Origin: Arthrobacter sp. PAMC25564 | GTDB taxonomy: Bacteria > Actinomycetota > Actinomycetes > Actinomycetales > Micrococcaceae | Direction: 5' to 3' | DNA: 64,000 nucleotides | Assembly: GCF_004798705.1 (NCBI RefSeq) | Contig: NZ_CP039290.1 | Span: 3,038,001-3,102,000, forward strand | In this document: one piece after another, positions 1-18,739 of the stretch | Layout: the number at the start of each line of letters is the position of its first letter | Numbering within the stretch: position 1 is the first letter of the stretch | Made by a program: the position numbers and the translations under genes | The notes under the pieces: model-generated | Told to the model about the DNA's origin: nothing | The model's database searches: none | The model's input: only the letters and a program-made list of their open reading frames with translations

Positions 1-25
1 TCCTGGACGCGGTCCCCGGGATCAT
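1..25 (-). CDS. Possible start of a plasmid relaxase gene (partial, cut by window edge)
   Basis: An ATG lies four bases after the stop of the mobC remnant on the same strand and opens a frame reading Met-Ile-Pro-Gly-Thr-Ala-Ser-Arg before the window ends. MobC genes are commonly followed at once by the relaxase, and many actinobacterial relaxases begin Met-Ile-Pro. Only eight codons are visible, so this rests on position and the first three residues. Confidence 0.3.
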
Positions 26-107
26 CGGCTACATCAGCCCCTCAATGGTCCGGTCAATCCGGTTTCGCGACCTCGCGAACATGGGCCAGCGCGGCCTTCG
101 CATCCTG

Positions 108-1694
108 GGGGGTGTCCCTATGTTCTTTGTCAAGCGTTCGGGGTGGATTTTTCTGGTCTGTGTGGCAGCGGGTTTGGGGCCAGGGGGTGTTGGCTGGCGA
201 GGATGCCTGCCAGCTGCAGGGAGCGGGAGGGTCAGGCGGCTTTGGGCTTGGGTGCTTCGTAGAGGGTCATGTCGCGGAGCATGGCGAACAGGACGTCGCA
301 GCGGCGCCGGGCGAGGGCGATGAGGGCCTGGTTGTGGCGTTTACCCTCGGCTCGTTTGCGGTCGTAATACGCCCGTGAGGCGGGGTCCTTCAGCGCGGCG
401 AACGCGGAGAGGAAGAAGGCGCGTTTGAGGATTTTGTTGCCTTTCCTGGAGGGGTGGTCGCCGCGGATGGACGTCCCGGATCTCCACGTCACCGGGGCTA
501 ATCCGGAGTAGGAGGCCAGGTGTCCGGCGGTGTTGAAGTCCTTACCGATGACCTCGGTGATGATCCTTGCCTCTGTCCTGGCGCCGACCGCCGGCATGGA
601 TGTCAGGACGGTGTGAAGAGGGTGGGCCTCCACGATGGCCTCGACCCGGGTCAGGACCTCGGCGCGGGCAGCGCGCAGTTGGGCCAGCTGTGCGGCCAGG
701 CGCGGCAGGACGATGCCGGCGGCACCGGTGCCGGCGACCACTACGGTCTGTTCGGACAGGGCGGTGAATATTTCTGCAGCCCAGCCCGTGCCGGCCCGCG
801 GCGCCCATTTGCGCAGGTACTCGCCGACCCTGGTCTGGCCGGCCTTACGCAGGGCCGCCGGGGTCGGGTACTTGATCAGCAGCTCGGCCATCGCCGGGTG
901 GTCCAGGTGCGGGCCGATGACCCGCTCCAAGGCGGGGTGGATCTGGGTCAGGAGCCCGCGGATCCGGTTCGAGGTTGCGGTGGCCTGTTGGGCCAGGTCG
1001 TCGTCGAAGCCGCAGAGCATGGACAGTTCCGCGGTCTGTTCGTCGGCAACCGCGATCGAGCGCAGGGTGTGCGGCATGGTGCGGGCGGCCTCGGCAATGA
1101 TGAACGAGTCGCGGGCATCGGTCTTCGCCTCGCCGGGGTGCAGGTCGGCGATCCGGCGCATCGCCAGCCCGGGCAGGTAGCCGACCATGATCCCGGCGGC
1201 CTGCGCGACGGCGACAGGAAGGGCGCCGATGGTCGCGGGCTGATCCACAACCAGCAACAGCGTCCCGTGTTTGGTCAGGGAACCGATGATGGAGCGCAGT
1301 TTCGCCTCGTCCTGGGGCAGCGCCTTATCGAGGAGCTTCTTGCCCTCCCGGTTCAGCGCCACCGCGTGGTGGTTGGTCTTGCCGACGTCGACGCCGATGA
1401 AGACATCGACGAGATGGTGGTCCTTGATCACCGCTACCTCCAGTCATGAAACCCAATAAGAGAACGCCGGTCTGTCCTGCGGCCCCAGAGCTCGGCATCC
1501 ACGTTACGGTCCGGCCTGCCACGGTCGAGTCTGCGACTGGTCTTGTCCCCATCAGCGATCCCCTGGCGCCTATCGCACCCCGGTGACAACACCCCCCGGA
1601 TCATACGGTCGACTGGGGGTAAGAACCATGCCGGGACCGACAGGCCAGCAACCCCGATTCTTGCTCGTTCAGGGGCTATAAGAAAGGTAACGGG
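108..1694 (-). mobile_element. IS110-family insertion sequence inserted in mobC
   Basis: The element is delimited by the point where the mobC reading frame breaks on each side: TTCCCC before it and CCCCAG after it on the minus strand. The run of C/G at 107-112 and 1691-1695 makes the exact end ambiguous by about four bases. It carries one transposase gene and a noncoding 5' stretch of about 260 bases (1432-1694) in which I see no gene. No terminal inverted repeat is evident, as is usual for this family. Confidence 0.7.
232..1431 (-). CDS. IS110-family transposase
   Basis: A 399-residue DEDD-type transposase. The N-terminal RuvC-like domain (residues 1-160) shows IGVDVGK with Asp15, VVDQPA with Asp63, and KTDARDSFIIA. 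The C-terminal Tnp20 domain (about 250-399) begins LTSMPAVGARTEARIITEVI and contains SYSGLAPVTWRSG and KGNKILKRAFF. The serine expected in the C-terminal motif is within that block. IS110 enzymes move a circular intermediate and do not use DDE chemistry. Length is normal for the family and the frame is intact, so the enzyme may be active. It reads in the same direction as the mobC gene it interrupts. Confidence 0.95.
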   Translation of the reverse strand: MIKDHHLVDVFIGVDVGKTNHHAVALNREGKKLLDKALPQDEAKLRSIIGSLTKHGTLLLVVDQPATIGALPVAVAQAAGIMVGYLPGLAMRRIADLHPGEAKTDARDSFIIAEAARTMPHTLRSIAVADEQTAELSMLCGFDDDLAQQATATSNRIRGLLTQIHPALERVIGPHLDHPAMAELLIKYPTPAALRKAGQTRVGEYLRKWAPRAGTGWAAEIFTALSEQTVVVAGTGAAGIVLPRLAAQLAQLRAARAEVLTRVEAIVEAHPLHTVLTSMPAVGARTEARIITEVIGKDFNTAGHLASYSGLAPVTWRSGTSIRGDHPSRKGNKILKRAFFLSAFAALKDPASRAYYDRKRAEGKRHNQALIALARRRCDVLFAMLRDMTLYEAPKPKAA

Positions 1695-2008
1695 GAACTC
1701 ATCGTCGGCGTTCGCGTGCCGGGCCATCTGGTTCACGTTGTTCGACACCCGCGCCAACAGCGTCTGCAGGGCCATCAGTTCCGCCATGGCTGCTTTAGCG
1801 CTCCGTCGGCGTCTCCGACGTCTCGGACAATGCCGAGGACACCATCAGGTTCCTGACCGTCACCCGCTCCCTCGCGGCACGGGCAACCAGCGCCTGCTCT
1901 TCCCCGGCGGTGACCCACACCTCGCGGCGCTTCTTTGTCCCCGCCGGCGAATTCGCGCGGCGGCGCTTGGACAGGAGCGGACGAGACTCATTCGTGGCCC
2001 GCGCAGTT

Positions 2009-2512
2009 TCAGCGGACCGTTGACGGTGGACCAGGTAATATGCCGGTCGAAGCGTTGAAGTCGGTAGACCCGGACACAATGGCCGAATTGGCCGCGCCGA
2101 TCGTAAGAGCAATCGTCGGGACGCCGGTGGATGCGTGATTGACCACCGAGGCGCCCACGGTGCCGTTGCGGTACTGTTCAACGACAAAGCCCCAGGAGAG
2201 GCCGCCGGTGCCGGTGAGTGAAACGGTGGCGGACGCGGACGCCGTCGTGACGGTGCCGCTCCAAAGTTTGAGGTCGCCGTAGCCGGTAGCGGAGACGGAC
2301 TTCTGAAGAATCCAGGTCACCGCTCCCGCCGACACGCTGGGGTTGGTGCCCATCCCGGAGGACGGGCCACAGGCCCCACCGCATACAACGAAAATGTCCC
2401 CCACGGCAATGTTCAGCGCCGCGGTGATCTTGGGTGTAGTAGCGGTGGTCTTGGGTGTAGTAGCGGTGGTCAGCGCAACCGAGACGCCGGTGACGCGGGT
2501 GGGGGCAGCCAA
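2009..2512 (-). pseudogene. Phage-like structural protein, 3' truncated
   Basis: An open frame of 167 codons starts at a TTG. It contains a degenerate internal repeat (TTATTPKTTATTPK), then Gly/Ser/Thr-rich beta-structure such as TWILQKSVSATGYGDLKLWS and GGLSWGFVVEQYRNGTVGAS. This is the style of phage tail or minor structural proteins and of actinobacterial surface proteins. No named domain is recognised. The last dozen residues (LPGPPSTVR and before) come from the mobC remnant read in another frame, so the true C-terminus is missing. The chimera marks a recombination junction near 2050. Confidence 0.45.
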
Positions 2513-2532
2513 GGTGAACTACCCCCGTCCCT

Positions 2533-4167
2533 TTACGGCGTCACTTGCGAAGTGGTCACTACGTTCAGCCAGGGGCCGGCGGGTACGTTCGCCCGGTCGA
2601 TCCAGCTCCAGGAGACATGGTCGCTGTCGCCGTCCAGGTCAGCGAAACCCAGGCACCCGTTCAGCGAGGGCGAGACGTCCATGCCTGCGCCCTGGGTGGG
2701 GTCACCTGAGAACTGTTTGTTGACGGGCCGGGCGTTGTTCTGACCGAACACGTAGCCCTTGTCGTGGTAGAGACTTCCCGAGGAAGGCCCTGCGTCTTCG
2801 ATCTGGCCGTAGCAGGTGTGCCCGTTCGGGCCGGTGATCGCCACCCAGCGATTCTTCATGTACGAGTAGTTCGAGTTCGCGCAGTTGTTCTTTCCGGTAG
2901 CTGCGTTGTCGGCCGCCGCCCAGGTGATCACTGAGCAACGTTCCGCAAAGGCGGTGGCGTCGTTCACGTCGTCATAGGGGAGATCCAGGTAGAACGCGTT
3001 TTCCTTCGGCATTCCGGCGGACGGTTCGAAGTCGTTCGTCGCTGTCCGTGCTTCGGTAGCGCACTTGAATGCCGTGCCCGTACCAGACCCCGTGCCGTCA
3101 CATGAGCCGTACACCGAACCTGCACAACCGGATGCCAAGGCGGGCGTGGTGCCAGTGTTCTTACCGCCCCAGTGCATGGCCCACTGGCTGTCGTAGGTGG
3201 AGCACACCTGCGAGCCGTCCGCCAGGTTGGTATTGAAAATCTCGCCCACCCAGAAACTCGTGGACACGATGTTGGTATGGAGCGGATAGGAACTCTGCGC
3301 AGGGGGAACCGGCGTCGGCGTGGGTGTCGGCGCAGGGGGAACCGGCGTCGGCGTGGGTGTCGGCGCAGGGGGAACCGGCGTCGGCGTGGGTGTCGGCGCA
3401 GGGGGAACCGGCGTCGGCGTGGGTGTCGGCGCAGGGGGAACCGGCGTCGGCGTGGGTGTCGGCGCAGGGGGAACCGGCGTCGGCGTGGGTGTCGGCGCAG
3501 GGGGAACCGGCGTCGGCGTCTCGGCGGGTGCCGGTGCCGGTGCAAACAGAGCGTCTACGAAGTAGTTTGCGCCCGATCCGTCGTCCCGGGGAATCGTCCC
3601 GTGCAACCCGGCCGTCTCGTACATGTAAACGCCGTTCGCGTCGGTCGTGGTGCGCGTGACCGTTTCCATAAGGTTGTTCGAAATGTTCCGGCCCATCGGG
3701 AAATAACCGGCGGTGAACGCAAAGTGGCCGTCGCCCGCGCCATAGCTAACCGTGTAGTCATGGCCCGGCGTTGCTAAGAACGGCGTCGAAAAATAGCCGA
3801 ACTGCCACCCGGACGCAGACTGATCGGTGATGACCAGATCACGGATACTGTAGCCGGTGGCCGTGTCCCAAAGGTGGGCAACATGGGAATTGTCAGTTGC
3901 ACCAACAGCTTTGTAGAACGCGATTCCGCCAATCGTCCCGGGCGCGTCGGTTTTGAACCGAAGCCCAAGTTCCACCTGTGCGCCGGAATAGCCGTTGTTC
4001 GGGCCGGCCCAGCCGGGATCCGAGAAAATGCCATGGTAGGCCGTTGCGGCGCTCGCGGGCTGCGCGTGAACCGTCCCGATCCCGACGAGTGCCGCCAGGC
4101 CCAGCAGGACCGCAGCAATAATCGCTGCAAGCCGTTTCGTGGACAACGCCCTTGCGTGTGTGTGCAT
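2533..4167 (-). CDS. Secreted DUF4082-like protein with Pro/Thr repeat linker
   Basis: A 544-residue predicted secreted protein. It has a lysine-containing N-terminus, a hydrophobic stretch LAAIIAAVLLGLAALVGI and a likely signal peptidase site after the Ala-rich PASAATA (about residue 42). Residues 43-210 resemble DUF4082: YHGIFSDPGWAG, ELGLRFKTDAPGTIGGIAFY, GHDYTVSYGAGDGHFAF. Residues 215-290 are an 11-residue Pro/Thr repeat (VPPAPTPTPTP), probably a rigid linker. The C-terminal 250 residues have about ten cysteines and blocks such as CYGQIEDAGPSSGS and LGFADLDGDSDHVSWSWID, whose family I do not recognise. AGAGGAAG precedes the ATG. The role is unknown; extracellular binding or carbohydrate-related activity is a guess. 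Confidence 0.75.
   Translation of the reverse strand: MHTHARALSTKRLAAIIAAVLLGLAALVGIGTVHAQPASAATAYHGIFSDPGWAGPNNGYSGAQVELGLRFKTDAPGTIGGIAFYKAVGATDNSHVAHLWDTATGYSIRDLVITDQSASGWQFGYFSTPFLATPGHDYTVSYGAGDGHFAFTAGYFPMGRNISNNLMETVTRTTTDANGVYMYETAGLHGTIPRDDGSGANYFVDALFAPAPAPAETPTPVPPAPTPTPTPVPPAPTPTPTPVPPAPTPTPTPVPPAPTPTPTPVPPAPTPTPTPVPPAPTPTPTPVPPAQSSYPLHTNIVSTSFWVGEIFNTNLADGSQVCSTYDSQWAMHWGGKNTGTTPALASGCAGSVYGSCDGTGSGTGTAFKCATEARTATNDFEPSAGMPKENAFYLDLPYDDVNDATAFAERCSVITWAAADNAATGKNNCANSNYSYMKNRWVAITGPNGHTCYGQIEDAGPSSGSLYHDKGYVFGQNNARPVNKQFSGDPTQGAGMDVSPSLNGCLGFADLDGDSDHVSWSWIDRANVPAGPWLNVVTTSQVTP
3297..3521. repeat. 33-bp tandem repeat, seven copies, coding for the Pro/Thr linker
   Basis: A unit beginning GCGCAGGGGGAACCGGCG recurs every 33 bases at about 3297, 3330, 3363, 3396, 3429, 3462 and 3495 with almost no divergence. 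Each unit encodes 11 residues on the minus strand, so copy-number change preserves the frame and only alters linker length. Confidence 0.9.
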
Positions 4168-4182
4168 GACTTCCTCTCGCTG

Positions 4183-4690
4183 CTAAGCGCCGAGCAGCGT
4201 CTGGGTCCAGGTAATCGTCAGCGTGTCTGATGCACCCTTTGACCCAATGCCGCCGAACAGGATGCGCGCGATTGTGTTCGCCGCCGTGCTTGTTGCGTCA
4301 GCAAGGAAGTCAAGGACGATGACAGCCTCCGTTTTGGCGGAGGCCGTGGTGGCCTTGCCTGCTGGGTAGGTTACCTTGTAGGTGACCACTTGCCCGCCGG
4401 ACGTGCCGGAGGTAGACGGAAATGTCGCGTCAAACGCCTGGTGGGAGTTGGACAGTTACGTTTACAGCGCCGCGCCTGTGCCTGACTTCACCGCTGCTGT
4501 TGAGCTTGCCTGCGTGCCGATCCTCATGCCCGAAGCGATCGGAATGGACTGGCCGGTGGCGGTGCCGAACGCGGCGCCTGCGCCCAGCGCAGTGCCCACG
4601 TAATTGCCGAACGTTGCGGCGGACGGGATGGACACAATGGCCCGGCGGCCGGAGTGACGCCCGCCAGCACAACAGTGTCACCGACGTTGA
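4183..4690 (-). pseudogene. Phage tail-like protein gene with several frameshifts
   Basis: Reading the minus strand across three frames gives a continuous-looking protein: LNVGDTVVLAGVTPA, then SIPSAATFGNYVGTALGAG, SIPIASGMRIGTQASSTAAV, NVTVQLPPG, FDATFPSTSGTSGGQ and finally a C-terminus ending TLTITWTQTLLGA. Frame changes are needed near 4640, 4468 and 4433. The composition (Gly/Ala/Thr/Ser-rich, beta-prone) matches phage structural proteins. The longest unbroken piece is 4183-4389 (68 codons). It lies 15 bases upstream of the DUF4082-like gene on the same strand. Confidence 0.5.
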
Positions 4691-4696
4691 GTTGCG

Positions 4697-4795
4697 GAGT
4701 TCGCCAACTGGCGCGTGCTGTTCTGGGGCGCGGGCGGCCTGGCGCTGGTCGCCGGAATCTTCATGTACTTCGTCCTCCCGGAGGTCCCACATGCA
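4697..4795 (+). pseudogene. MFS transporter fragment (one transmembrane helix)
   Basis: About 33 codons read EFANWRVLFWGAGGLALVAG followed by IFMYFVLPE. This matches the end of the sixth helix of drug-efflux MFS proteins (typically W-R-x-x-F-W). Nothing else of the gene is present on either side, so it is a relic at a recombination junction. Confidence 0.35.
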
Positions 4796-4931
4796 CGGCG
4801 GGTACTTTCTGATGCAGGTGAAAGATACAGGGCGCGTCGCCACCGTAATTGTTTCCGGACTGCCGCAAAAAGCCGACCACGACCTGATCGTGGAGGCATT
4901 GACAATATTCCGAGACCGCAACAAGCCCTGA
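4791..4931 (+). CDS. Small hypothetical protein (46 aa)
   Basis: ATG at 4791 is preceded by CGGAGG seven bases upstream. The product reads MHGGYFLMQVKDTGRVATVI, then a segment containing LIVEALTIFRDRNKP before TGA. It has no membrane segment or signal peptide and looks like a small soluble alpha/beta protein. I do not recognise the family. It overlaps the end of the MFS fragment in another frame. Base composition and ribosome site favour a real gene, but it is short. Confidence 0.4.
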   Translation: MHGGYFLMQVKDTGRVATVIVSGLPQKADHDLIVEALTIFRDRNKP

Positions 4932-5150
4932 GAAGGCTCGCGCCAGCCAGTTGTGCCGGCGAAATGTTGGCCTGAGTCCGCACGCAAAAAGCCCGGTGGC
5001 TAGCACCGCAAGCAGACGTAGTCTGCGGCAACCGGCACCGCTTCAGGGAAGTGCCGGCCACGTCAGAGAACGGTGTTGCCGCCTGAATCCTCGCCGGCGG
5101 CTTGAGGCACCCCGCGGCTTCACCGGGCCCCTGGCCGTCAGCCCGTGGAC

Positions 5151-5903
5151 TTATTCGGCGGTGCCTGTCTTCGCGGCGTAGGCGATGGCTTGGGCCCGCA
5201 CCTGGCGAATGTAGGGATCGGACTGGTTGTAGGAGTAGATGGCATCGGTCCATCCTTGCGCGGTTGAGAGGTCGCGGCCGTGGGCGCACAGATAGGTCGC
5301 CGCGCTGAGGGCTGCGTCGTCGATATTGAACGGGTCGGCTTTGCCGTCCCCGTTCCCGTCCCGCCCTACAAGCTGCCAGGTGGAGGGAATGAACTGCATG
5401 GGTCCGACGGCGTGGTCCCAGCGGGCGTCGCCGTCCAGGGCACCCGCGTCCGTGTCGGCGATGGCGGCGAATCCGGCGCCGTTGAGGCTCGGGCCCACAA
5501 TTGTGCCGCTCGCCTGCCCTGCGGTGTTGAGGCTGCCGCCGCCGTATGTTCCGTGCGCGGATTCGACGAAGCCGACAGCTGCCACGGTGTTCCAGCCGAT
5601 CCCGCACGTCGGAGCGGAATCGTTGGCCGTGGCTACCGCAGCAACGTAGGCCCGGAGCGCGCGGGCAGGGATCCCGGTCTGCGCGGCAGCCCGGGTCAGC
5701 CACTGAGCATCCGGACTCGGGGTCACGTTCACGGCGGTGGTGATGCCGGTGGAGAGCATGTCAAGTTCCGCCCCCGCCCGCGGAGGTGCAGAAAGGGCCC
5801 CGCGGGCGTCTGCGCCGGGCTGCCGGGTTGCCCAGAACGAGAATGCGGTGATAACGCAAACCGCGAACAGGCTGAAAACCACAAGGCGTTTTAGACGAAG
5901 CAC
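5151..5903 (-). CDS. Lytic transglycosylase-like murein hydrolase, membrane-anchored or secreted
   Basis: A 250-residue protein with an N-terminal membrane segment (LVVFSLFAVCVITAFSFW, residues 7-24) and an extracytoplasmic domain. It contains the family's signature blocks: GWNTVAAVGFVESAHGTYGG with the likely catalytic Glu, GPMQFIPSTWQ, DGNGDGKADPFNIDDAALSA (which may bind Ca2+) and ATYLC, then AIYSYNQSDPYIRQV near the end. Such enzymes cleave the MurNAc-GlcNAc bond of peptidoglycan. Length is typical of actinobacterial lytic transglycosylases. It stands alone between decayed genes and the MBL operon, with no visible operon partner. Confidence 0.85.
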   Translation of the reverse strand: MLRLKRLVVFSLFAVCVITAFSFWATRQPGADARGALSAPPRAGAELDMLSTGITTAVNVTPSPDAQWLTRAAAQTGIPARALRAYVAAVATANDSAPTCGIGWNTVAAVGFVESAHGTYGGGSLNTAGQASGTIVGPSLNGAGFAAIADTDAGALDGDARWDHAVGPMQFIPSTWQLVGRDGNGDGKADPFNIDDAALSAATYLCAHGRDLSTAQGWTDAIYSYNQSDPYIRQVRAQAIAYAAKTGTAE

Positions 5904-5910
5904 GGACTAA

Positions 5911-6091
5911 TCAAACCATCCACGCCCCGTGACCGGTCGACGAAACGGTGCTCAGCGCGAAGTGATCGCTCGTGCGACGGATAGTGACCACCGACCAGCC
6001 CCGCGTCGCCGTCACTGTAAGGACGAGCTCATCAGTGTCGAGTGCCGCCGGAGCGGCCCCTCGCGGTTCGACGAGGCCGTTGTGCGGTCTG
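5911..6091 (-). pseudogene. Possible C-terminal gene fragment
   Basis: The minus strand upstream of the transglycosylase has an open frame ending ELVLTVTATRGWSVVTIRRT and then SDHFALSTVSSTGHGAWMV before TGA. Third-position GC is fairly high, which suggests former coding sequence. No start or family is identifiable and it abuts the stop of the MBL gene. It may be a relic or chance. Confidence 0.2.
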
Positions 6092-6092
6092 T

Positions 6093-7385
6093 TTACGGTG
6101 CCGGGAAAGTGATCTCGCTCCAAAGGTTTCCGGGTCCGATGTGAACGCGGGTGTCGGCGACTGGGGCATCCGCCCTGACGATGTGGGCGTTCATGGTGGT
6201 TAAGGCGGTCAGCAGATTCTCGTTCGGGATGTCTCCCCACTGCTCGACTTTTCCGTACGGGAGCATTGCGTAGGTGCCTTGGTTGCCGATGGCGTTGGTG
6301 GCGTATTCGCGTGGTGTGGCGTTGTGGGAGCCGTGGTGGCCGATCTTGTAGAAGGCGGGGGCTGATACAAGGGCGCGGGCTGCGGGGTCTTGAAGGACGT
6401 GGTCCCAGGCGCCTTGTTGTGAGTCACCGACGAAGACGAGTCTGGTGCCATCGACGTCGAGAACGAAGTAGATGCTGGTGTTGTTCACGGAGCGCTCAAG
6501 GATGGATGCCGCTGCCAGAAGTTCGCTCGCGTCGTCGAGCAGTGCCGGGAGGTTCAAGGTTGCTAGGGTGCTGACGAGTTCGATTCCGATGTTACCCGCG
6601 ATTTCGTCGGGAGTGACACTGTAGATCTCGTCGAAGAGGGGCTTCGCCGGCGCCTGACCGACGGCGAAGTCGCTTTCGGATTCGGCGTCCAAAGCCTGTT
6701 GCATAGCGAGCCATCGGGCGGACGCGGGAGGGTTCATTAGTTTGAGCTGATCAGGATCACGTGAGGGTCCGAGGACATGCACCGTGGCGTTCGGTAGTGA
6801 CGTTCGGATGATGTTCAGTTCGCCGACCCTGTCCGGGAGGTAGCGGATCGCCGGGACATTGAGGAAGTGTTTGCCGTTGCGTCCGAGCAGACGGTCCATG
6901 GCGTCCTCGTTGCCGAGAGAGTTCAAGGCCAGAGTGCCGGCAATCCCGAGAGCCAGGGCTCGTGCTTCATCGTTCAGCGCAGCGGGCGCACGACCGATCA
7001 GGGTGTTCAAGTTTGTTGCTGCTCGGGCGAGCCCGTTCTTCAGCGTCTTGGCGTCCTCGTCGGAATCGTCTTCGACGAACGAGACCCAGACTTCGCCGAC
7101 GTGGACCTCTGCCCAGTCGTCGAAGGCGAATCCGGTGATGTGGTCGGCGTGGTGGTGAGTTGCCACGACGACGTCGAGGGTCGGTGGTGTTCCTGGTTCG
7201 GCCGCCTCCGTGAGGTCGGAGATGATCGCATTGACGACGTCGAGGAGGGGCCGGGCCTTGCCCAGGCTATGGACGCCGCAGTCCACCAGCATCCGCCAGG
7301 CCTGATCGTCCTGTTTAACGGTGATCAGGAAAGCGTCCCCGAAGCCGACGTCATACATGCGGATCGTGACGGAGGATGCGGGCAT
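6093..7385 (-). CDS. ComEC-like metallo-beta-lactamase-fold hydrolase
   Basis: A 430-residue stand-alone MBL-fold protein. Motifs in order are DVGFGDAFLI (strand 1), VDCG (34-37), THHHADHITG with the metal ligands HHHADH at 77-82, then towards the C-terminus FVGDSQQGAWDHVL (Asp ligand) and KIGHHGSHNATP (His ligand). This ligand layout is that of the cytoplasmic MBL domain of ComEC/Rec2 proteins, but there are no membrane segments. About 200 residues between the motifs are insertions I cannot assign. It is the third gene of a leftward operon, starting two bases after the metalloprotease stop. It is probably a metal-dependent hydrolase of a phosphoester or nucleic acid; the substrate is unknown. 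Confidence 0.85.
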   Translation of the reverse strand: MPASSVTIRMYDVGFGDAFLITVKQDDQAWRMLVDCGVHSLGKARPLLDVVNAIISDLTEAAEPGTPPTLDVVVATHHHADHITGFAFDDWAEVHVGEVWVSFVEDDSDEDAKTLKNGLARAATNLNTLIGRAPAALNDEARALALGIAGTLALNSLGNEDAMDRLLGRNGKHFLNVPAIRYLPDRVGELNIIRTSLPNATVHVLGPSRDPDQLKLMNPPASARWLAMQQALDAESESDFAVGQAPAKPLFDEIYSVTPDEIAGNIGIELVSTLATLNLPALLDDASELLAAASILERSVNNTSIYFVLDVDGTRLVFVGDSQQGAWDHVLQDPAARALVSAPAFYKIGHHGSHNATPREYATNAIGNQGTYAMLPYGKVEQWGDIPNENLLTALTTMNAHIVRADAPVADTRVHIGPGNLWSEITFPAP

Positions 7386-7387
7386 GG

Positions 7388-9331
7388 TCAGGGTCCGTCC
7401 TGGCTGGCGTGCAGGCGCGCGAAGGAGAGTCGGAGTGTTGCGGGTTCAACGGTCCATGCCGAGAGGGCGTCCATGTCTTCGACGTCGCCCATCCAGTCGC
7501 GGATCGAGCGCAACCGTTCGGTGCCGGCCTTGTCGAACTCGAGGGCGCACTCCTTGAGGTCCCCGGACAGGTCCTCGAGTTTAGTGCGGTCCGAAAGCGG
7601 CAACGGTTTGGTGACGAGGAATTCGACCGGGCCATCCACGCGGGCAATGACGGTTGTGCCAGCGCGAATCGCTGCCCGCTGGCTCCGTGGGATCTGCGCC
7701 CCTGTCTCGTCGGTCCGCTGATCTTCCAGGTCGTCCCGACGTTGGGCGAACTGGATGACGACGATCGGCCGGGGTTGCCCGTCGGAGCCCCGGAGGTAGG
7801 CAGCTTGGGAGCTGACCACCTCAATCATCCCTGCGGCTTTGTCCAAGCCAAGTTCGTAGGCATGCTCCTCGCCCCAGCCATGAATGAGTTCCCGAAGACG
7901 TCTGCCATTGGGGTGCGAGTTCAAGTGAGCACGCGCGGTCCGTCCAGGGACCGCCAGTGCAGGCGTTGCATCCCGCGAGGGAGGGATGGTAGCCGGGTCG
8001 TCGGCGAAGGGAACCGTGCTGCCGGGGTCGAGTTCGAGGGTTGCCGCCAGGAACAGCGATGCTAAATCGATGCCATCCGTTCCACCGCTCAAGCTCAGGG
8101 CGTGTGGCGGTTTAGGCCAGAGTAGTGCCTCGTCGGCGAGGGAGGTCACTCCTGGTGGATAGATACCGCGTCGACGGAATGCCTCGACAAGAATGGCCCG
8201 GAGTTGTCCGGCGTCATCGGGGTAGAGTCCGTGGTCGGCGGTGACGATCGCCCGGACGACATCACCGAAGGTCACGTCGACGACGGGGAGGTACTCGAAC
8301 GCCCGGACCACCATTTCCAGGAACCGGTCGGCATTCGTCGCCGCCGCAGCGGTGACGCGTTTGACCAGGTCCGTTGGGAGGGCCCCTGGCGGGAGGACGC
8401 CGGTGCCGGCGCTGGCGATACGTCGGAGATCTGCGATCTGCGATTTGTAGCTGTCAATAAACGCGTCGAAGACGGCGGCGACGAAGCATGAACCGCGGTC
8501 GTGTGGTTCAACCGCTTTCAGGAACGCGTCCGGGGTGCGGGGGGATCCGACCGCGGACCTCAGCGCTGCGCCACGACCGGTGGACTGACCGAACTCGATT
8601 GCGAGATCCAGGAGTGCCGACCCCTCCTCGAGTGTCCCTTGCGATGTCGCTACGGCGTCGGAGACGACTTCGGGGAAGCTGAAGTGGTTAAACAGCGCAA
8701 CGAGGTCCGCGATTGCTTCATGCCATGCGAGCACGTCAGGGTGAGTAGGTTCGGAAAAGTACGGGCGCATACGGTGCACGATTGCGTGGGTGACTTCATG
8801 TGCAATTACGTCAACGGACAGGCAGGTAAACATCATCTGCCCCGGCAGGTTGGGACCAGGGTCCCTCGAGTCGGCACGGAAGTAGCCGAAAAGGACGGCC
8901 CGCCGATCTTTGTCGAAGTAAGCGTTTCGTCCCTCGAACGCATGCGGGACGATGCGGAGTTTATCGTCGCCTCGCCAGCGGAAGCGGAAGCCGCCGAACC
9001 GTTCGAAGCGTTCGATCACGCTCATGGCCACGGCATAGACAACTTGCTGGTGGGTTCTGGGGTCGCTTTCCACTGGCCGCATACCCCGTTGAGCGAGGAT
9101 GGCGGCGTCGTTGAGGTCAACTGGCAGATACCAGAGGTCTCGAGCCACATCATAATCGACGACCTTTAAGAGCCGGCCGGACGGCCCGGGCCTAAGGTCT
9201 GTCTCGAATGCGATGTCGATGGTGAGGAACCTGCCCGACAGGCGGGTCGACATGGGATCGAACGCATGCGCACGAAGCAGCCGCCGGGCCGGCAGCACAG
9301 GCTCGGGCCGGTCTCTTTTCGTGGCAGTCAT
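7388..9331 (-). CDS. Gluzincin-type zinc metalloprotease, large, uncharacterised
   Basis: A 647-residue protein. Zinc ligands fit the gluzincin plan: HEVTH at 178-182 and HEAIADL at 204-210, giving His178, Glu179 (base), His182 and Glu205. The surrounding VDVIAHEVTHAIVHRM resembles M4-like peptidases, but the N-terminal 150 residues and the C-terminal 350 residues match nothing I know. The C-terminal part looks regulatory: an Arg-rich GRTARAHLNSHPNGRRLREL and a beta-rich FLVTKPLPLSDRT. No signal peptide is visible, so it should act in the cytoplasm. Its ATG overlaps the stop of the DUF2235 gene by four bases. Conserved catalytic residues suggest an active protease. Confidence 0.75.
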   Translation of the reverse strand: MTATKRDRPEPVLPARRLLRAHAFDPMSTRLSGRFLTIDIAFETDLRPGPSGRLLKVVDYDVARDLWYLPVDLNDAAILAQRGMRPVESDPRTHQQVVYAVAMSVIERFERFGGFRFRWRGDDKLRIVPHAFEGRNAYFDKDRRAVLFGYFRADSRDPGPNLPGQMMFTCLSVDVIAHEVTHAIVHRMRPYFSEPTHPDVLAWHEAIADLVALFNHFSFPEVVSDAVATSQGTLEEGSALLDLAIEFGQSTGRGAALRSAVGSPRTPDAFLKAVEPHDRGSCFVAAVFDAFIDSYKSQIADLRRIASAGTGVLPPGALPTDLVKRVTAAAATNADRFLEMVVRAFEYLPVVDVTFGDVVRAIVTADHGLYPDDAGQLRAILVEAFRRRGIYPPGVTSLADEALLWPKPPHALSLSGGTDGIDLASLFLAATLELDPGSTVPFADDPATIPPSRDATPALAVPGRTARAHLNSHPNGRRLRELIHGWGEEHAYELGLDKAAGMIEVVSSQAAYLRGSDGQPRPIVVIQFAQRRDDLEDQRTDETGAQIPRSQRAAIRAGTTVIARVDGPVEFLVTKPLPLSDRTKLEDLSGDLKECALEFDKAGTERLRSIRDWMGDVEDMDALSAWTVEPATLRLSFARLHASQDGP

Positions 9332-10434
9332 TGGTCAGTTCCAGCCGGCGCAGGTAGCCGTGGTTGCCCGACCCAGTCCGGATCGGCCCAGAGGACATTG
9401 GTCGGCGCCTTGAACGTTGGATCGGTCAAAGCCCGGGTGTTCACGCTTGCGTGGACAGAGGCACCGGCGGGGATCTTCCTGTCGCGCGTTCCCAGGAGAG
9501 CCCATGCCCGGCCGCGGCGGTGCAGCTTCGAAGTCGCGTCAGCAGGCGTGACCGTGCAGGCGGCGATCGGGGCACGGGATCGAACCAGCAACCCCTCCGC
9601 AATAGCCCCCTCGATGATCCACTTCAAGGTGATTCTCGACAGCCGAGGGGCATGAGTATTCTTCCCCGGGCGGGTTATCTGGCCGGGGGGTGGGTCGTCG
9701 ACAAAGGTTCCTCCGACATCACTGTGCACCCCGGCGAACCAAACCTCCTCCAGCGTACCGTCCGTGCGGGCGTCGACCAGGTACTCCTTGAAGGGTGCCC
9801 GTTGCTCATTGATCGACACAGCGTGGCGGATGCGCGCGGCGTTGGGGAGTTCCCGGGTGAACGGCCAAGTGACCTCCCATCGGAGGAACCCGGCGGCCTT
9901 GACGGTGTCCCACAAGCCCAAATACTTCACCGGTATCGTTGATTTGCCGTCGACATGCTGCGCGAACACTTCTGAGGTGAGGTGGACTTCGTCCCAGTCG
10001 ATCGTCGTCTCGCCGGCCCGGCGGGCATAGGCCGCGACCACATACGGAACGAGGTTCTCAGACCCTGGTCTCAACACACCGATGGCGCGAAGAATCCCCA
10101 CGAGGGAACGAGCCGTGTAGGCGCCGCGGCTGAACCCGAAAACGAAGACCTGATCACCGGGCGCCCAGTTCTGCATCAGCCATGTGTAGGCCTCCCCTAA
10201 GTTCTGCCGCAGGCCCCACCCGAATGCGAGGCCGCCTAGTCGCGAAATCGCTCTCGCGAGCGGAGTCCACGCGCCGGCCGACGAGAACGTGCCCACCCCA
10301 GGGTCGTAGTAAGCGATCTGCTTGATGGGATCGGAATGATCGAGTAACTCGTATAGAAGCACGACGTTGGTGTTGCCCTTGGCCCGCAGCTGCGCACCGG
10401 TCCCGTCCAGACACACCACCAGATTCCGGGACAT
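9328..10434 (-). CDS. DUF2235 alpha/beta hydrolase
   Basis: A 368-residue protein starting RNLVVCLDGTG (residues 3-13), the hallmark of DUF2235. The nucleophile elbow is GFSRGAYTARS at 100-110 with Ser102. Later come LGLWDTVKAAGF and WFAGVHSDVGG, which carry the acid and His positions. DUF2235 domains include the Tle1-type phospholipase effectors of type VI secretion, but many bacterial copies are stand-alone and uncharacterised. There is no signal peptide and no T6SS gene nearby; this looks like a Gram-positive. GGAGGTGTTAG directly precedes the ATG. It is the first gene of the three-gene operon with the metalloprotease and MBL protein. Confidence 0.85.
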   Translation of the reverse strand: MSRNLVVCLDGTGAQLRAKGNTNVVLLYELLDHSDPIKQIAYYDPGVGTFSSAGAWTPLARAISRLGGLAFGWGLRQNLGEAYTWLMQNWAPGDQVFVFGFSRGAYTARSLVGILRAIGVLRPGSENLVPYVVAAYARRAGETTIDWDEVHLTSEVFAQHVDGKSTIPVKYLGLWDTVKAAGFLRWEVTWPFTRELPNAARIRHAVSINEQRAPFKEYLVDARTDGTLEEVWFAGVHSDVGGTFVDDPPPGQITRPGKNTHAPRLSRITLKWIIEGAIAEGLLVRSRAPIAACTVTPADATSKLHRRGRAWALLGTRDRKIPAGASVHASVNTRALTDPTFKAPTNVLWADPDWVGQPRLPAPAGTDQ

Positions 10435-10573
10435 CTAACACCTCCGCTCCGGCCACCCGCCGCACCTGAAACCGATCATCCCCCTAGAGTGCGGCCAAGG
10501 GAAGATCAAGCCACAAAATGTGGACCAGCACTGAACTTACGTTGTCCCGGGGCTTCTGGCCGCCGGGGTCATC

Positions 10574-10876
10574 GTGGGCCTGCTGCCCCGAAGCGTTGCC
10601 GGGTTCGACGCCGTGTGCCCGTCGGTACGTGGTCATCTGACCGGCGCTGTCATCCCGCTGCAACCTGTCGCGGACCAGCCGACCAGCGCGCCGTGCGTCA
10701 CGTACGAGGGTCAGATGATGGCCTGGATAGGCATCCTTCTCGGCAGCGCAGCTGTTGTCCTCATCGCCGGGTTGATCGCCGAATCAAGGGCGCGCCGGCT
10801 TCGTTCGGTGCCCCCCGGCGACCGGCACAGCACCAGCCCTCCCGGAGCCGACGCACTTTCCCCTGTGGACCGGTGA
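10574..10876 (+). CDS. Small membrane protein, probably 5'-truncated
   Basis: The frame reads LLAAGVIVGLLPRSVAGF from upstream of a possible GTG start, then a short extracytoplasmic segment with two Cys (VCPSVRG and APCVTY), then WIGILLGSAAVVLIAGLIAE and a basic tail. Two helices with a Cys-containing loop resemble small two-helix membrane proteins seen in Arthrobacter. The first helix begins upstream of the GTG and no ATG is available, so the N-terminus may be lost. Confidence 0.4.
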   Translation: MGLLPRSVAGFDAVCPSVRGHLTGAVIPLQPVADQPTSAPCVTYEGQMMAWIGILLGSAAVVLIAGLIAESRARRLRSVPPGDRHSTSPPGADALSPVDR

Positions 10877-10886
10877 CCAGGACGCC

Positions 10887-11516
10887 ATGGCGGATGGCTG
10901 CGGGTTGCCGTGGTCGTCGCGGTGGGCACCTGTCGGAGTTTGTCGTCCGGCCGGTGCCGGGGCCCACGCATCACGCATCGCCCGCCCTGGGACGTTTCCG
11001 GCGGTTGCACCCCCGGTCATTCCCGTTGCCCCGGGTGCCTCCCGGACAGCGGTGTCCGTTCCGGCCGGCAGCCCGCAGACAAGGGCCCGCCGGGCTGCCG
11101 GCACCGTTCCCGTCGAGGAGACAACAGGCGCAGCAACCGCAGGCACGAGCCCCTCCCCTGTACCCGCCCCGACAACAACGCCCGACGCAACGAAGCAGTT
11201 CGCCCCCAGCCACTGCGGGCTGTCCGTATCTGGCTGGTTCCTGGCTGTTGGTCTGGGCGGTCTGCTTTTTGCCGGCCCAGGGATGCCGCGCCTCAGGCGA
11301 CCTCAAGAGGCTTTGGGCGGACCTGATGCGGTATCCAGGACAGCCGGAAAGCCGCCCTGGCGGTGCGCGCGTCCGAGGGAACCGGGATCTCCGGTGTTCA
11401 CGGGTTCCTTCCCCGCCATGTGCTCGTCCACGGGCGGGAAAGCGCGGTCAGCGTGCCTTGAGGGTGGAGATCACCGCATGCCGGTGCCCGCCTGCCTGCT
11501 TAGAGTCCGGAGTTGA
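10887..11516 (+). CDS. Hypothetical Pro/Thr/Ala-rich protein with one membrane segment
   Basis: An open frame of 209 codons. The middle is rich in Ala/Pro/Thr/Ser (GAATAGTSPSPVPAPTTT) and is followed by a hydrophobic stretch SGWFLAVGLGGLLFAGPG and basic residues. This looks like the stalk and anchor of a surface protein without an LPXTG motif. No domain is recognised. Several long ORFs overlap it in other frames. The last 60 codons overlap the sedolisin end, so the frame may be a relic or partly spurious. Confidence 0.25.
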   Translation: MADGCGLPWSSRWAPVGVCRPAGAGAHASRIARPGTFPAVAPPVIPVAPGASRTAVSVPAGSPQTRARRAAGTVPVEETTGAATAGTSPSPVPAPTTTPDATKQFAPSHCGLSVSGWFLAVGLGGLLFAGPGMPRLRRPQEALGGPDAVSRTAGKPPWRCARPREPGSPVFTGSFPAMCSSTGGKARSACLEGGDHRMPVPACLLRVRS

Positions 11517-13092
11517 TCGCCGCGAGCAGGGCTGTCCCGTCAGGGCTGCCGAGCCCGGTGCAGGGATCCCAACCGGTCGCGGCCTGGTACGTGCCGTTGT
11601 TTCCCGTGGTGACGTCGTGGAATCCGGCGTTCCGGCTGTAGAGCAGAGGCTGGATTTGGCCGAACCGCCGGCCTGTTGACTGGGCGAATAAGGCGATCAG
11701 TGCCGCCCAGAGGGGTGCGACGGCGCTCGTGCCGCCGATGACCATGTCTTTGCCGTCAACCCTGACCCTGTACCCGGTCTGCGGATCGGCGACGCCGCTG
11801 ACGTCGGGGACGCCGCGGCCGTGTACCCCGGGGGTGGGCTTTGGTGCCGGTTTGTGGTGGCGGGCATGGGCGGGCAGACTGCTCTGCCAGGCCGGTACGG
11901 GGAACGTGTCGCTGTAGCCGCCGCCCGTGGCCGAGTTCGGTCCGTCATTCCAGACGGTTTCTGATCTGATACTGCCGGTGGCCGGGTCGGCGTCGAGGCG
12001 GGTACCGCCGCAGGCCAGTACGTGTGGGCTGGAGGCCGGAAAGTCTGCGTGGTCTTTGCCGTCCGTGGCCGCGTCGGCGCTGCCGTTGTCCCCTGCCGCT
12101 GCGGTGACGGTCACGCCCATCGCCGCGGCGTCGGCGATGGCCTGGTCAAACGCTGTCCGGGCCTGAGCGGTCCAGGCGTCTTCGTTCTGACCCCAGCTAA
12201 TGCTGATCGAGGCCGGTGCCGGTGCGGCGTGGGAGGCGTTGATGATCGCGTCGAGGAACCCGGCGTCAGTGTTCGGGGCGAAGTAGACGAGGACGTCCGC
12301 CTTCGGTGCCAAGGCGCCGACCACTTCGATGTCGAGCAGCACTTCCCCGTCGGCCCCCGCCGGGTCCTGCCCGGGCTGGCTGACGGCGCCGTCGACTCCT
12401 ACTGCAGTCACCTTTGGCCCGGCGATCCCCAAGCCTTGGAAATAGGCGTCCAGGTCACCCTGACCGAAGCCGCCGCCGAGTTCGATGATCGCCACGCTCT
12501 GACCGCTGCCGTCCGCCCCGGGAGGGAAATTGTAGATTCTGGCTAGTTCTGGCGGGGTGTAGCTAATCCCGGCGGCGGCCAGCGGGATCGCATGGAATTG
12601 CGCCCGGGCCTGGGGGCGGTCGTCAAGGCCAAGGACGGCCGTGACGATTCCGTCAAGCTCCGCCGGTATTTGCAGGCCCCCGGTCCGGTGCCGGTGGGTG
12701 ACGTCGTGACCGTGGGGTCCGCTGCTGGTTACTTCTTCCAGGCTGGTGCCGAAGATCCGGCTTAGCTCTTCGACGGTTCCCGCCAGCCGCAACCGGCGGG
12801 AGGCCGGGTCCGCTTCGAGGATGTCCGCCCCGAGCCGCGTGAACGTATCGGTGGCAAGGCGCAGGTCCCCGGAGGAGGCCCCGTGGCGGGCCGCGAGATC
12901 GGTGCGGGAGATCGGTTCGGCGGGCATTTGTGTCAGCGGTACCTGACGGCGCAGGATCACGGTTATCTCAATCCTGCGAGAAGGATCGACGGGACCGTGC
13001 GTGGCCTGGATCCTTGCAGCCGCCGGGCGTTCCGAGCCGGCAAGCGGGACGCTGTCTCCGGCGGGCTTCGGTGTGGTGTTCTGGTCAGACAT
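11500..13092 (-). CDS. Sedolisin-family (S53) acid serine protease, kumamolisin-like
   Basis: A 530-residue protein with S53 architecture. The N-terminal activation domain covers residues 30-170 (LGADILEADPASRRLRLAGT, FGTSLEEV). The catalytic domain starts near YTPPELARIYNFP. Catalytic residues fit the sedolisin triad: Glu250 and Asp254 in GEVLLDIEVVG, and Ser456 in GGTSAVAPLWA. The oxyanion Asp lies in AAGDNGSADAATD. The C-terminal CTGLGSPDG is the usual start of the Ca2+ site. No classic signal peptide is visible, as in several kumamolisins. Family members are secreted and active at low pH after self-removal of the prodomain. GGAGCA precedes the ATG. Confidence 0.95.
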   Translation of the reverse strand: MSDQNTTPKPAGDSVPLAGSERPAAARIQATHGPVDPSRRIEITVILRRQVPLTQMPAEPISRTDLAARHGASSGDLRLATDTFTRLGADILEADPASRRLRLAGTVEELSRIFGTSLEEVTSSGPHGHDVTHRHRTGGLQIPAELDGIVTAVLGLDDRPQARAQFHAIPLAAAGISYTPPELARIYNFPPGADGSGQSVAIIELGGGFGQGDLDAYFQGLGIAGPKVTAVGVDGAVSQPGQDPAGADGEVLLDIEVVGALAPKADVLVYFAPNTDAGFLDAIINASHAAPAPASISISWGQNEDAWTAQARTAFDQAIADAAAMGVTVTAAAGDNGSADAATDGKDHADFPASSPHVLACGGTRLDADPATGSIRSETVWNDGPNSATGGGYSDTFPVPAWQSSLPAHARHHKPAPKPTPGVHGRGVPDVSGVADPQTGYRVRVDGKDMVIGGTSAVAPLWAALIALFAQSTGRRFGQIQPLLYSRNAGFHDVTTGNNGTYQAATGWDPCTGLGSPDGTALLAAINSGL

Positions 13093-13099
13093 GAAAGTG

Positions 13100-13465
13100 C
13101 TCCGTTCGTGGGCCGGTCATCGTTCAGGGCTTTGTTGTTGTCGGGGGAACATCTTTTCGGTGGCGAGTTCGTGCCGAAGCCGCTGCCATGGTTTTCGAAG
13201 AACTCACCGGTCAGCGCCAGGTATGCGTCGAACGGGATCGCCGGCTTCGTGTCGAACTGGGCGCGGGTCGCTTCTTGCTCTGCGCTGAGCCACTTGTAGC
13301 GAGCGTGCCGATCCCGGGGCTGATCCGACGTCGACGGGTCGCCCGGATCGGCCGGTCCGATGCAACGCTGGCCACGAACCGGGCCAAGCCCCGAAAGTTA
13401 TTATCGGTCGCGTGGTTCTCCTGGACCAACACCACAACGCGTTTATTTCTGTTGTCCGCCATGAC
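13100..13465 (-). pseudogene. Phosphoesterase (AcpA/phospholipase C family) remnant, frameshifted
   Basis: The minus strand carries KRVVVLVQENHATDNNFRGL, the start of the phosphoesterase family catalytic domain (QENH and the Asp are metal-site residues). After a shift near 13360 it continues as GDPSTSDQPRDRHARYKWLS, FDTKPAIPFDAYLALTGEFF and ENHGSGFGTNSPPK. Only about the first 110 residues of a protein of 300 or more remain, with an internal deletion and a frameshift. The remnant runs into the leader of the sedolisin gene, so that gene's promoter may lie inside it. Confidence 0.6.
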
Positions 13466-13539
13466 ATCCCCGTTGCCTCGGCCGGATCTCCCGGACGTTT
13501 GATCGGTCATCAACGAGACTACGCCCACGCTGCCCCTCG

Positions 13540-13853
13540 CGGCAGAACCGTACTAGCCTTTTTAGGGAACTATTCACGTTCGCCGCCATCGCACCAGCAG
13601 GACCCCAGCCGGGCACCAACAAGCGCTTATGCCAGAAATTGCGCATTCAACCCGCACACGGGTTGGTGACGCAACGCAGTTGTCGTGTAGACGTCAGTCA
13701 CCGGTCCCTGGACAACTTCACGGTGCATCTCCATGCGTCGCAGTTACGCCCTGGAACCGGTAAACAGCAACGATCGACACACGTCATCGGCGATTGTCGG
13801 GATTCATGCGACGCCGCGCGATACTCCACTCAATTGGCGAAGCTCCAGTCCGA
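13540..13853. other. Intergenic stretch with no recognisable gene
   Basis: About 310 bases between the phosphoesterase relic and the IS3 left end. ORFs here are short, overlap on both strands and show no family resemblance. I see no RNA gene, terminator or repeat. Confidence 0.5.
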
Positions 13854-13895
13854 GGTGTGTCAAGGATGTGAGACGTCGGTTGGTTTTTTCAGGGT

Positions 13896-14787
13896 TTAGG
13901 CAGCGGCCGGAACTCGGCTGCTGCCGGTCTTGAAGCCGGCCATCGCGGTGGCCGGCGGCAGCCCGGCGTTGTTGCTGTGGGGCCGCCAGCGGTTGTAGAA
14001 CACCTCGATGTAGCGCATGACGCCGCGCCGGGCTGAGTGCCTCGTGGTGAAGTTGTGGTGATGGTATAACTCGTTCTTCAACGACGAGAACAGCGGTTCG
14101 GCCACGGCAATGTCCCAGCACACGCCGGTTTCTCCCATGGACTGACGGACACCCGGTTTCCCCGGCACCAGGCACCCATTTCCCGGGATGTGTACTGGGT
14201 TCCGCGGCCCGAATGGAAAATCGCGTCGGGCTGCAGGTGCCCGCGGTCCCTGGCCATCTTCAGCGCGCCCGTGACGAGGGAGGCACGCATATGGTCCGCC
14301 ATCGCCCAGCCGACGACCAAGCGCATGCACAGGTCGATGACGGTGGCCAGATACAGCCAGCCCTCATCGGTGCGCAGATAGGTGATGTCGCCGACCAGCC
14401 GGGTCCCGGGAGCCTCTGAGGTGAAGTCCCGGCCGATGAGATCGGCGAAGACCTTGTCCGGATCCGAGGGGATCGTGGTGCGTTTGAACGCGCGCATCCG
14501 CTTCGCGGCCCACCCGTTCTCCGCCATGATGGCAGCGACGGTACCCACGGAGTCCCGGATGCCGTCGGCGGCCAGTTCCTTGTGGACCATCCGGTGTCCG
14601 AAGATCCCGTCCGAGGAATCGAACATCGTCTTCACCTGTTCTGTCGGCTCCAGATGCCTGAGGGCCGTCGGGGATTCCTCCGCGTCCAGCCACCGGTAAT
14701 ACGAGGCCCTGGAAATGTCCGGCCGGCGGCACATCCACTGGATGGGAAACTGCGCGTCCTTCGCCTGAACGAGACGGTAGAGATCCT
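13896..14787 (-). pseudogene. IS3-family transposase orfB, frameshifted, catalytic Asp lost
   Basis: The rve-type integrase core is recognisable: CRRPDISRASYYRWLDAEES (HTH_21), GDITYLRTDEGWLYLATVID with the first catalytic Asp, FHSGRGTQYTSREM, and after a frameshift near 14150 ETGVCWDIAVAEPLFSSLKN with the Glu region. The second catalytic Asp, normally in HSDRGSQYT, is Gly here (codon GGC). The frameshift plus the Gly substitution make the enzyme inactive. The C-terminus HSNNAGLPPATAM is otherwise intact. Confidence 0.85.
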
Positions 14788-14825
14788 CTACCGTTGTTCT
14801 TTGGCGAAGAACGCGGAAACCTTTT

Positions 14826-14855
14826 TTAGGTTATGCCGATGTCGGCATAACCTAA
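14826..14855. repeat. Extra palindrome at the left end of the RIT element
   Basis: TTAGGTTATGCCGA, a two-base TG centre, then TCGGCATAACCTAA: a 14-base perfect inverted repeat. The same core TTATGCCGA recurs inside both long terminal repeats. It lies between the IS3 target (TTAGG) and the left 90-bp repeat and has no counterpart at the right end. Likely a recombinase recognition or crossover site. Confidence 0.7.
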
Positions 14856-14940
14856 ATTATTCTGATGTCCGGATTATTCCGATGTCTGCCTGAACCCGCA
14901 GCTCAGGGCCGGGTGGGTGCCGGAATGTTCGGCATAATCC
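14851..14940. repeat. RIT left terminal inverted repeat, 90 bp
   Basis: Starts CCTAAATTATTCTGATGTCC and ends TTCGGCATAATCC. It matches the reverse complement of 18168-18257 at 89 of 90 positions; the only difference is GGATTATTCC here against GGATTATGCC at the other end. It contains nested inverted copies of a TTATGCCGA core. Confidence 0.9.
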
Positions 14941-14941
14941 C

Positions 14942-18116: not shown

Positions 18117-18167
18117 GATCCTTGTCCTTCCGAGAGAAGACGGGAGGACAAGTATCAGACGGTAGCC

Positions 18168-18257
18168 GGATTATGCCGAACATTCCGGCACCCACCCGGC
18201 CCTGAGCTGCGGGTTCAGGCAGACATCGGCATAATCCGGACATCAGAATAATTTAGG
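18168..18257. repeat. RIT right terminal inverted repeat, 90 bp
   Basis: Reverse complement of 14851-14940 with one mismatch. It begins GGATTATGCCGAACATTCC and ends AGAATAATTTAGG at the junction with IS3 orfA. Confidence 0.9.
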
Positions 18258-18511: not shown

Positions 18512-18599
18512 AATCCTTTCAAGCTGTGTCTCACATCAGTAGTACACCTGCTGGCAGCAACGGTTGTGGACGTTTGAGACCCCGTGTCCGGCATGCCCG

Positions 18600-18706: not shown

Positions 18707-18739
18707 CAGGAGACCTCCTTGCTCTGCACCCAGGAACAC

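Follow-up and report, generated by a model that had tools for sequence, protein, structure and literature searches.

A three-gene operon in Arthrobacter sp. PAMC25564

We analysed a window of 64,000 nucleotides of the Arthrobacter sp. PAMC25564 genome (contig NZ_CP039290.1, positions 3,038,001 to 3,102,000; "the window" means this whole stretch), in which an initial annotation, made from the sequence alone, had pointed to an operon for a lipase-like hydrolase, a predicted protease and a ComEC-like enzyme of the metallo-beta-lactamase (MBL) fold. The list of open reading frames (ORFs) and their translations show three intact ORFs, all on the minus strand, at positions 6093-10434. These genes, here called A, B and C, and the stretch upstream of them are:

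Gene A, 9328..10434, minus strand: 368 residues, a Tle1-like/DUF2235 alpha/beta-hydrolase (phospholipase-like), with Ser102 in GFSRGA, an HSDVGG motif and a match to PF09994.
Gene B, 7388..9331, minus strand: 647 residues, a predicted gluzincin-type zinc protease, with HEVTH at 178-182 and Glu205; its C-terminal part is less conserved.
Gene C, 6093..7385, minus strand: 430 residues, a ComEC-like MBL-fold hydrolase and probable gated nuclease, with HHHADH at 77-82, Asp321 and His350/351.
Upstream stretch of about 70-100 bp, 10435..10537, minus strand: kept with the operon in relatives, as seen from the ends of blastn blocks; a probable promoter or leader.

Genes A and B overlap by four bases (9328-9331) and a gap of two bases (7386-7387) separates B from C, exactly as first annotated. 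The catalytic residues reported as intact (Ser102; HEVTH plus Glu205; HHHADH plus distal Asp and His) are all present, and the sites of B and C are invariant in alignments. A hydropathy scan, which is not a dedicated signal-peptide program, detected no signal or membrane segment and no hydrophobic N-terminus in A, B or C (the top 19-residue mean across the three proteins was 1.31), in agreement with the annotation of all three as lacking a signal peptide. Upstream of A, the blastn blocks stop at 10505 (L016 and L095; such labels are ours for individual loci) and at 10537 (L094). A promoter scan of 5900-10700 found no sigma-70 consensus in 10435..10537.

Sequence relationships of the three proteins

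Gene A matches the Pfam family T6SS_Tle1-like_cat (PF09994, E 8.1e-71, 239 bits against a cut-off of 27), which we take to be the former DUF2235. In a phmmer search of the Protein Data Bank (PDB), it matched the Tle1 phospholipase-domain protein 9j3f (E 3.6e-5). It thus shares with the Tle1 phospholipases, which are type VI effectors, a catalytic domain scoring above the Pfam cut-off and the serine motif; unlike them, it is 368 residues long and linked to B and C. No type VI genes were recognised by eye among the genes called in window positions 1-20000, and no profile search for them was made.

Gene B had no match in Pfam, NCBIfam or PADLOC, and no sequence relative in the PDB at E values up to 10; among 7998 candidates scored, 2645 proteins match it at E 0.01. 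Residues H178, E179, H182 and E205 are invariant in 57/57 aligned rows, HExxH is followed by a downstream HE..[AS]D motif in all 79 rows of the B tree, and the best-conserved part is the N-terminal ~400 residues. By this motif, HExxH with an invariant Glu downstream as putative third ligand, B classes as a gluzincin. It shares with the thermolysin-type gluzincins (M4) the HExxH and a distal Glu at similar spacing, but it falls in no Pfam family, and its profile (57 rows) matches thermolysin-type proteases below significance (E 0.08-0.5) and over the HExxH...E site only.

An S8 subtilase precedes B within a single ORF in four loci (L063, L070 and L077 by Pfam, L075 by profile) and in two plasmid loci (L139 and L148). 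The L077 fusion (4359-8867) is a single ORF of 1502 residues that joins S8 subtilase, B and a C-terminal GDPD, with no C gene within the searched range. A distant, stand-alone gluzincin of ~551 residues adjoins an mnmA-like gene (by eye) in L096-L101, L103 and L104; the mnmA label, and that of "Arthrobacter-type" for these genomes, are our assumption. In seven of these eight loci, a caspase-like gene of 250-281 residues on the opposite strand adjoins the gluzincin. The idea that the operon of L095 replaced such a stand-alone site was rejected from a reading of the genes there.

Gene C matches PF00753 (E 1.2e-5), and its profile matches structures of ComEC (9vc6, E 1.8e-12; 9ic4, E 7.9e-11). 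H77, H79, D81, H82, D321, H350 and H351 are invariant in 41/41 rows, and HxHxDH is present in 75/75 C rows. Among PADLOC profiles, C matches LmuA (1.1e-16), Avs1a (1.2e-11) and the DRT-associated MBL (4.1e-8). Its NCBIfam scores are far under the cut-offs for Avs1a (44.4 bits against 420) and 6A-MBL NF058524 (34.6 bits against 220), which places C outside these two families. An hhalign comparison with a canu-like MBL family, gathered from beside the caspase genes of L060 (see below), gave a probability of 97.1 and E 5.3e-11 over 290 columns. By these matches, C is distantly related to ComEC and to the Avs1a/LmuA MBL enzymes.

The spacing between HxHxDH and HHG is 273 residues in the C of the window and has a median of 263.5 (range 242-326) in the C family, for the 58 of 75 rows in which both motifs were matched. 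The median is 211 in the canu-like relatives (16/16), and the spacing in ComEC 9ic4 is 127 (by eye). Compared with ComEC 9ic4, C thus has ~146 additional residues between the metal motifs, as a count along the sequence and not as a position in three dimensions. The longer spacing puts extra sequence within the interval that bears gating insertions in published pro-nucleases (Tuck et al. 2025, PMC12799240).

B and C are inherited together

We surveyed the best 80 loci of 294 relatives in named genomes, which are best matches and not a random sample; the genes of the fetched chromosomal loci were called with a simple script. In 75 of the 80 loci, spread over many phyla, C lies downstream of B on the same strand, with an ORF start no more than 400 bases past the end of B. 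Two of the five others stop at a contig end (L047 and L072) and three are without C after B (L033, L070 and L077). On plasmids, C follows B in all 12 loci examined, out of 37 records. Tree distances for B and C are correlated (r=0.90, 75 pairs), a value reached in 0/1000 permutations. Moreover, the two trees have 24 starred splits in common, and of the 37 starred splits in the B tree, one contradicts a starred split in the C tree. B and C are therefore inherited together, the correlation covering co-evolution and common inheritance alike. The synteny is conserved, and homologues are not found mostly alone or in a housekeeping set, a pattern that the initial annotation had named as speaking against it.

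The third gene is exchangeable

The third gene was searched from -3.5 to +5 kb around B, with profiles seeded from the same 80 loci. At least one recognised partner was present in 43 of them: A (21 loci), patatin (10), S8 (6), an astacin-like protease (4), an alpha/beta hydrolase (3) and GDPD (1). A and patatin never occur in one locus. None of the partner profiles matched in 30 chromosomal control regions of the same genomes or in 12 plasmid control regions. Of the 21 copies of A, 8 precede the pair on its strand, 10 lie downstream and convergent to it, 2 lie downstream in the same orientation and 1 is divergent. Patatin is out of line with B in two of its ten loci: in L021 it is divergent, and in L069 it lies two genes off on the opposite strand. 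The linkage of the lipase to B-C survives these changes of position and strand. Mapped on the 79-row tree of B with one state per row, A requires a minimum of 6 changes between presence and absence and patatin 10, gain and loss not being distinguishable. In one plasmid locus, a gene annotated as phospholipase D-like lies immediately 5' of B. The three-gene set, first annotated as a unit, is indeed mobile (see below), tightly packed and syntenic; its conserved core is the protease and the MBL enzyme only, and several other partners can take the place of the DUF2235 lipase.

Other genes were seen beside the pair. One extra protease near B-C bears hemopexin repeats. In a patatin-B-C locus of a Rhodococcus metagenome-assembled genome (L034), the second gene after C (14891-16354) encodes 487 residues and is presumably LodA-like, as judged by eye. 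A giant gene adjoins A-B-C on the C side in each of two loci, L094:13331-19796 (Arthrobacter) and L039:14878-21358 (Cryobacterium); the L039 gene matches DUF6603.

The operon spreads like a cassette

A close B was found in 2 of 60 other genomes of the same genus, and 8 more had only the distant type (ORF of 556-575 residues). At E 1e-60, B was found in its own genome only among the matches listed for a 396-genome sample of the phylum, with 3 candidates per genome scored. We compared window positions 1-24000 with relatives by blastn (E 1e-20). Similarity to L094 was confined to 6082-10537 and that to L016, whose contig ends shortly past C, to 6095-10505. In L095, similarity covers 7995-10505 only, though this locus encodes the whole of A, B and C; the blastn block ends inside the operon, so that only the upstream edge is visible there. 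DNA similarity thus stops at both operon edges in two relatives and at the upstream edge in a third. The confined blastn similarity shows a cassette-like spread of the operon. The closest relative (L014) shares the operon at 98.6% identity, against 91% for the kumamolisin-like gene next to it. B also occurs on plasmids, in 37 records of which 21 are conjugative.

In IMG/VR viral contigs, 177 pattern matches to B included no relative of it, and phage records gave two unannotated matches. A 9.5-kb human faecal record named "Bacteriophage sp." (MT836994.1:4192-5880), which may not be phage, carries a near full-length B relative of 42% identity. One locus filed as Sporosarcina beigongshangi (L017) has 65.7% GC and a B that is 70% identical; Sporosarcina is presumably of low GC, and the record looks misassigned or contaminated.

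Defence genes beside plasmid copies

For the plasmid neighbourhoods, 12 of the 37 records were picked for organism variety before their own neighbours were viewed, and the roughly opposite region of the same plasmid served as control. Of 169 features listed for the test regions, 103 were used (excluding B, C, lipase partners, two insertion sequence (IS) genes and short or cut genes), and of 208 listed for the controls, 139 (excluding short, cut and some small or IS genes). At E 1e-20, 118 PADLOC families, which are not mutually independent, matched in the 103 neighbour genes, versus 38 in the 139 control genes. A tally by locus, made partly by eye from the first 25 families listed, found known defence genes at 5/12 loci versus 1/12 controls in a strict count (Fisher p 0.155) and at 8/12 versus 3/12 in a loose count (Fisher p 0.10). 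L138 has a gene annotated as NACHT, which matched nothing in PADLOC and was left out of the tally. The loci counted are:

Strict, plasmid L139: Dsr2.
Strict, plasmid L141: IetS and E1-E2/JAB.
Strict, plasmid L142: CBASS cyclase and Septu PtuA.
Strict, plasmid L143: CBASS cyclase and Hachiman.
Strict, plasmid L145: Hachiman.
Strict, control L151: annotated Shedu, with SduA and IetA in the tally.
Loose additions, test loci L140, L144 and L146: JAB or E1-E2 genes.
Loose additions, controls: a ThsA-like SIR2 gene (L153) and a ZorD/DpdE-like helicase (L161).

In two of these loci (L143:6830-15920 and L145:6821-15913), patatin, B, C, HamA, HamB and HamC follow in this order on one strand, with C-to-HamA gaps of 130 and 114 bp, respectively. 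On a Hymenobacter plasmid (L146:5571-11363), a gene for an LmuB-like ATPase (E 2.2e-20) ends 24 bp before B and a convergent JAB gene lies behind C. An AAA ATPase gene occupies the same place before B in L140 (5604-11351). LmuB, an SMC-like ATPase, is part of Lamassu, and the L146 arrangement is possibly a Lamassu-like version of the set.

Comparison with known protease-MBL systems

Tuck et al. (2025, PMC12799240) showed that, in Hachiman and AVAST, the MBL enzyme is a pro-nuclease that a trypsin-like partner opens. In canu, a caspase complex opens the MBL pro-nuclease likewise, and Lamassu is among the systems said to use MBL-protease pairs. The same report remarks that related MBL nucleases also accompany proteases of "other diverse families" (its fig. 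S2), and B may therefore already figure there.

As in HamMAB and AVAST type 1, a ComEC-type MBL enzyme with extra residues between its motifs is co-encoded and co-inherited with a protease, in pairs that move between contexts (PMC12799240). The protease of these systems is, however, a trypsin domain fused to a defence enzyme, whereas B is a predicted stand-alone gluzincin (HExxH...E); the MBL gene lies downstream here, a lipase is added, and the operon is without HamAB or a STAND gene. The window operon likewise lacks the STAND and trypsin partners of AVAST type 1 (Avs1a). Canu (PMC12799240) resembles it in having a protease gene upstream of the MBL nuclease gene and stand-alone proteins, but the protease is a caspase, of which there is none in the window operon. 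With Lamassu, the DRT-associated MBL and 6A-MBL, C shares remote sequence similarity, and an LmuB-like ATPase gene lies just upstream of B in the plasmid relative L146; the window operon, in contrast, is without LmuB, a reverse transcriptase or an E1/E2/JAB gene.

By analogy, the B-C pair fits the principle of a gated pro-nuclease plus protease (PMC12799240), with a gluzincin replacing trypsin or caspase, because the two genes are co-inherited, the active sites are intact and extra residues lie between the metal motifs. The protease class differs, which puts the pair outside the trypsin and caspase groups. That no described system has this combination was part of the initial annotation. No paper on the gene set A-B-C was found among those listed in literature searches, and term searches of the DefensePredictor (PMC13092281) and Lipocone (PMC12419801) papers gave nothing on it, but a close principle has already been described (PMC12799240).

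The canu-like locus mentioned above (L060:2-7714, Rhizobium sp. CF080) has a caspase-MBL-caspase set that is divergent from a separate alpha/beta-hydrolase, B, C set.

A candidate protease-gated conflict module

We consider the chances to be about even that the operon is a mobile cytoplasmic conflict module, most likely anti-phage, with B and a pro-nuclease C as its core and an exchangeable third enzyme. Given the fit to the published precedent (PMC12799240), we hold it most likely that, upon a trigger, B would cut the extra loops between the metal motifs of its dedicated partner C, and that cleaved C, an MBL-fold pro-nuclease, would degrade DNA. The third enzyme (the Tle1-like A; elsewhere patatin or another hydrolase) would act as a further effector, against membranes, and B may activate it as well. 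The trigger might be carried by B itself or, in some loci, by the neighbouring ATPase. A wider proposal, which we regard as possible but rather doubtful, is that MBL pro-nuclease immunity is also driven by a third class of protease, next to trypsin and caspase: a zinc metalloprotease, self-sensing or steered by an added sensor such as an LmuB-like ATPase or Hachiman, would set free two killers simultaneously, the MBL enzyme against DNA and an exchangeable phospholipase against membranes, and conjugative plasmids would have carried the cassette across bacterial phyla. Pro-nuclease switching by proteolysis was reported in 2025 with trypsin and caspase partners (PMC12799240). If, across phyla, the same sort of MBL enzyme is paired with a zinc protease unrelated to these, this switching principle would have arisen with a further protease class; the swapping of lipases of several folds around a constant B-C pair would point to a single protease able to control two types of effector.

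Several results weigh against the conflict module. On chromosomes, we took at most the five closest genes from each of 30 loci and compared them with the same number in control regions of the same contigs, leaving out 4 large genes of 146 in the test and 1 large gene of 144 in the control. At E 1e-10, 44 PADLOC families matched in 142 neighbour genes versus 45 in 143 control genes, so there is no chromosomal enrichment in defence genes, and defence-island association on chromosomes was rejected as support; the control set itself includes CBASS genes. In view of this null result, single finds (AbiD, E1-E2/JAB with MBL and the canu-like locus) were not taken as enrichment. The plasmid excess by locus is not significant in either the strict or the loose count. 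Moreover, 37 of the 80 surveyed loci (some at contig ends) are without a recognised third gene, and no known sensor or NTPase was found in the window operon. The resemblance of B to thermolysin stays below significance, and both the gluzincin fold of B and the gating loops of C are predictions from sequence. The anti-phage module first annotated keeps its mobility, its synteny and a protease-MBL pairing with a published anti-phage precedent (PMC12799240); an association with defence islands is not seen on chromosomes and is only suggestive on plasmids.

The missing chromosomal signal would suit a non-immune role, in which the operon would be a cytoplasmic hydrolase set for stress lysis, predation or turnover, or cargo exported by a route encoded elsewhere. 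Chromosomal neighbours are in keeping with it: among the 25 Pfam families listed of 180, most are housekeeping. Some loci also have extra proteases (S8, astacin-like, and the one with hemopexin repeats), and a DUF6603-type giant gene adjoins the set in two genera. The patchy distribution of B within its genus and phylum speaks against such a role, however, as do the cassette-like spread, the many conjugative plasmids, the lack of a signal peptide by hydropathy and the LmuB-like or Hachiman genes directly adjoining some plasmid copies. Inspection by eye of the genes called below 20 kb in the window, without a search aimed at them, revealed no secretion genes. We judge a non-immune role to be unlikely, though not negligible. 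Alternatively, the lipase might be the centre of the set: B would activate A or patatin as a membrane-killing effector, and C would act as a regulator or hydrolyse a nucleotide signal instead of serving as DNase effector. Partners of lipase type, in different folds, are indeed found in 34 of the 80 loci (A, patatin and alpha/beta-hydrolase profiles; 35 with GDPD), the phospholipase D-like gene directly before B adds a plasmid case, and the lipase stays linked despite its altered position and strand. The constant partner of B is nevertheless C and not a lipase, which is unrecognised in the 37 loci without a third gene, and DNases are the closest relatives of C that have been characterised (PMC12799240); this arrangement seems to us quite improbable.

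That three unrelated hydrolases came together by chance close to mobile elements would agree with the three recombinase genes upstream in the window, but this is refuted by the cross-phylum synteny and co-inheritance of B and C and by control regions empty of profile matches; we see almost no prospect of it.

Neighbouring genes in the window

Upstream of the operon, a Pro-kumamolisin-type protease gene lies at 11500-13092. An ORF at 14078-14734 resembles, by eye, part of an IS3-type transposase, and three overlapping tyrosine recombinase genes stand in a row at 14942-18116.

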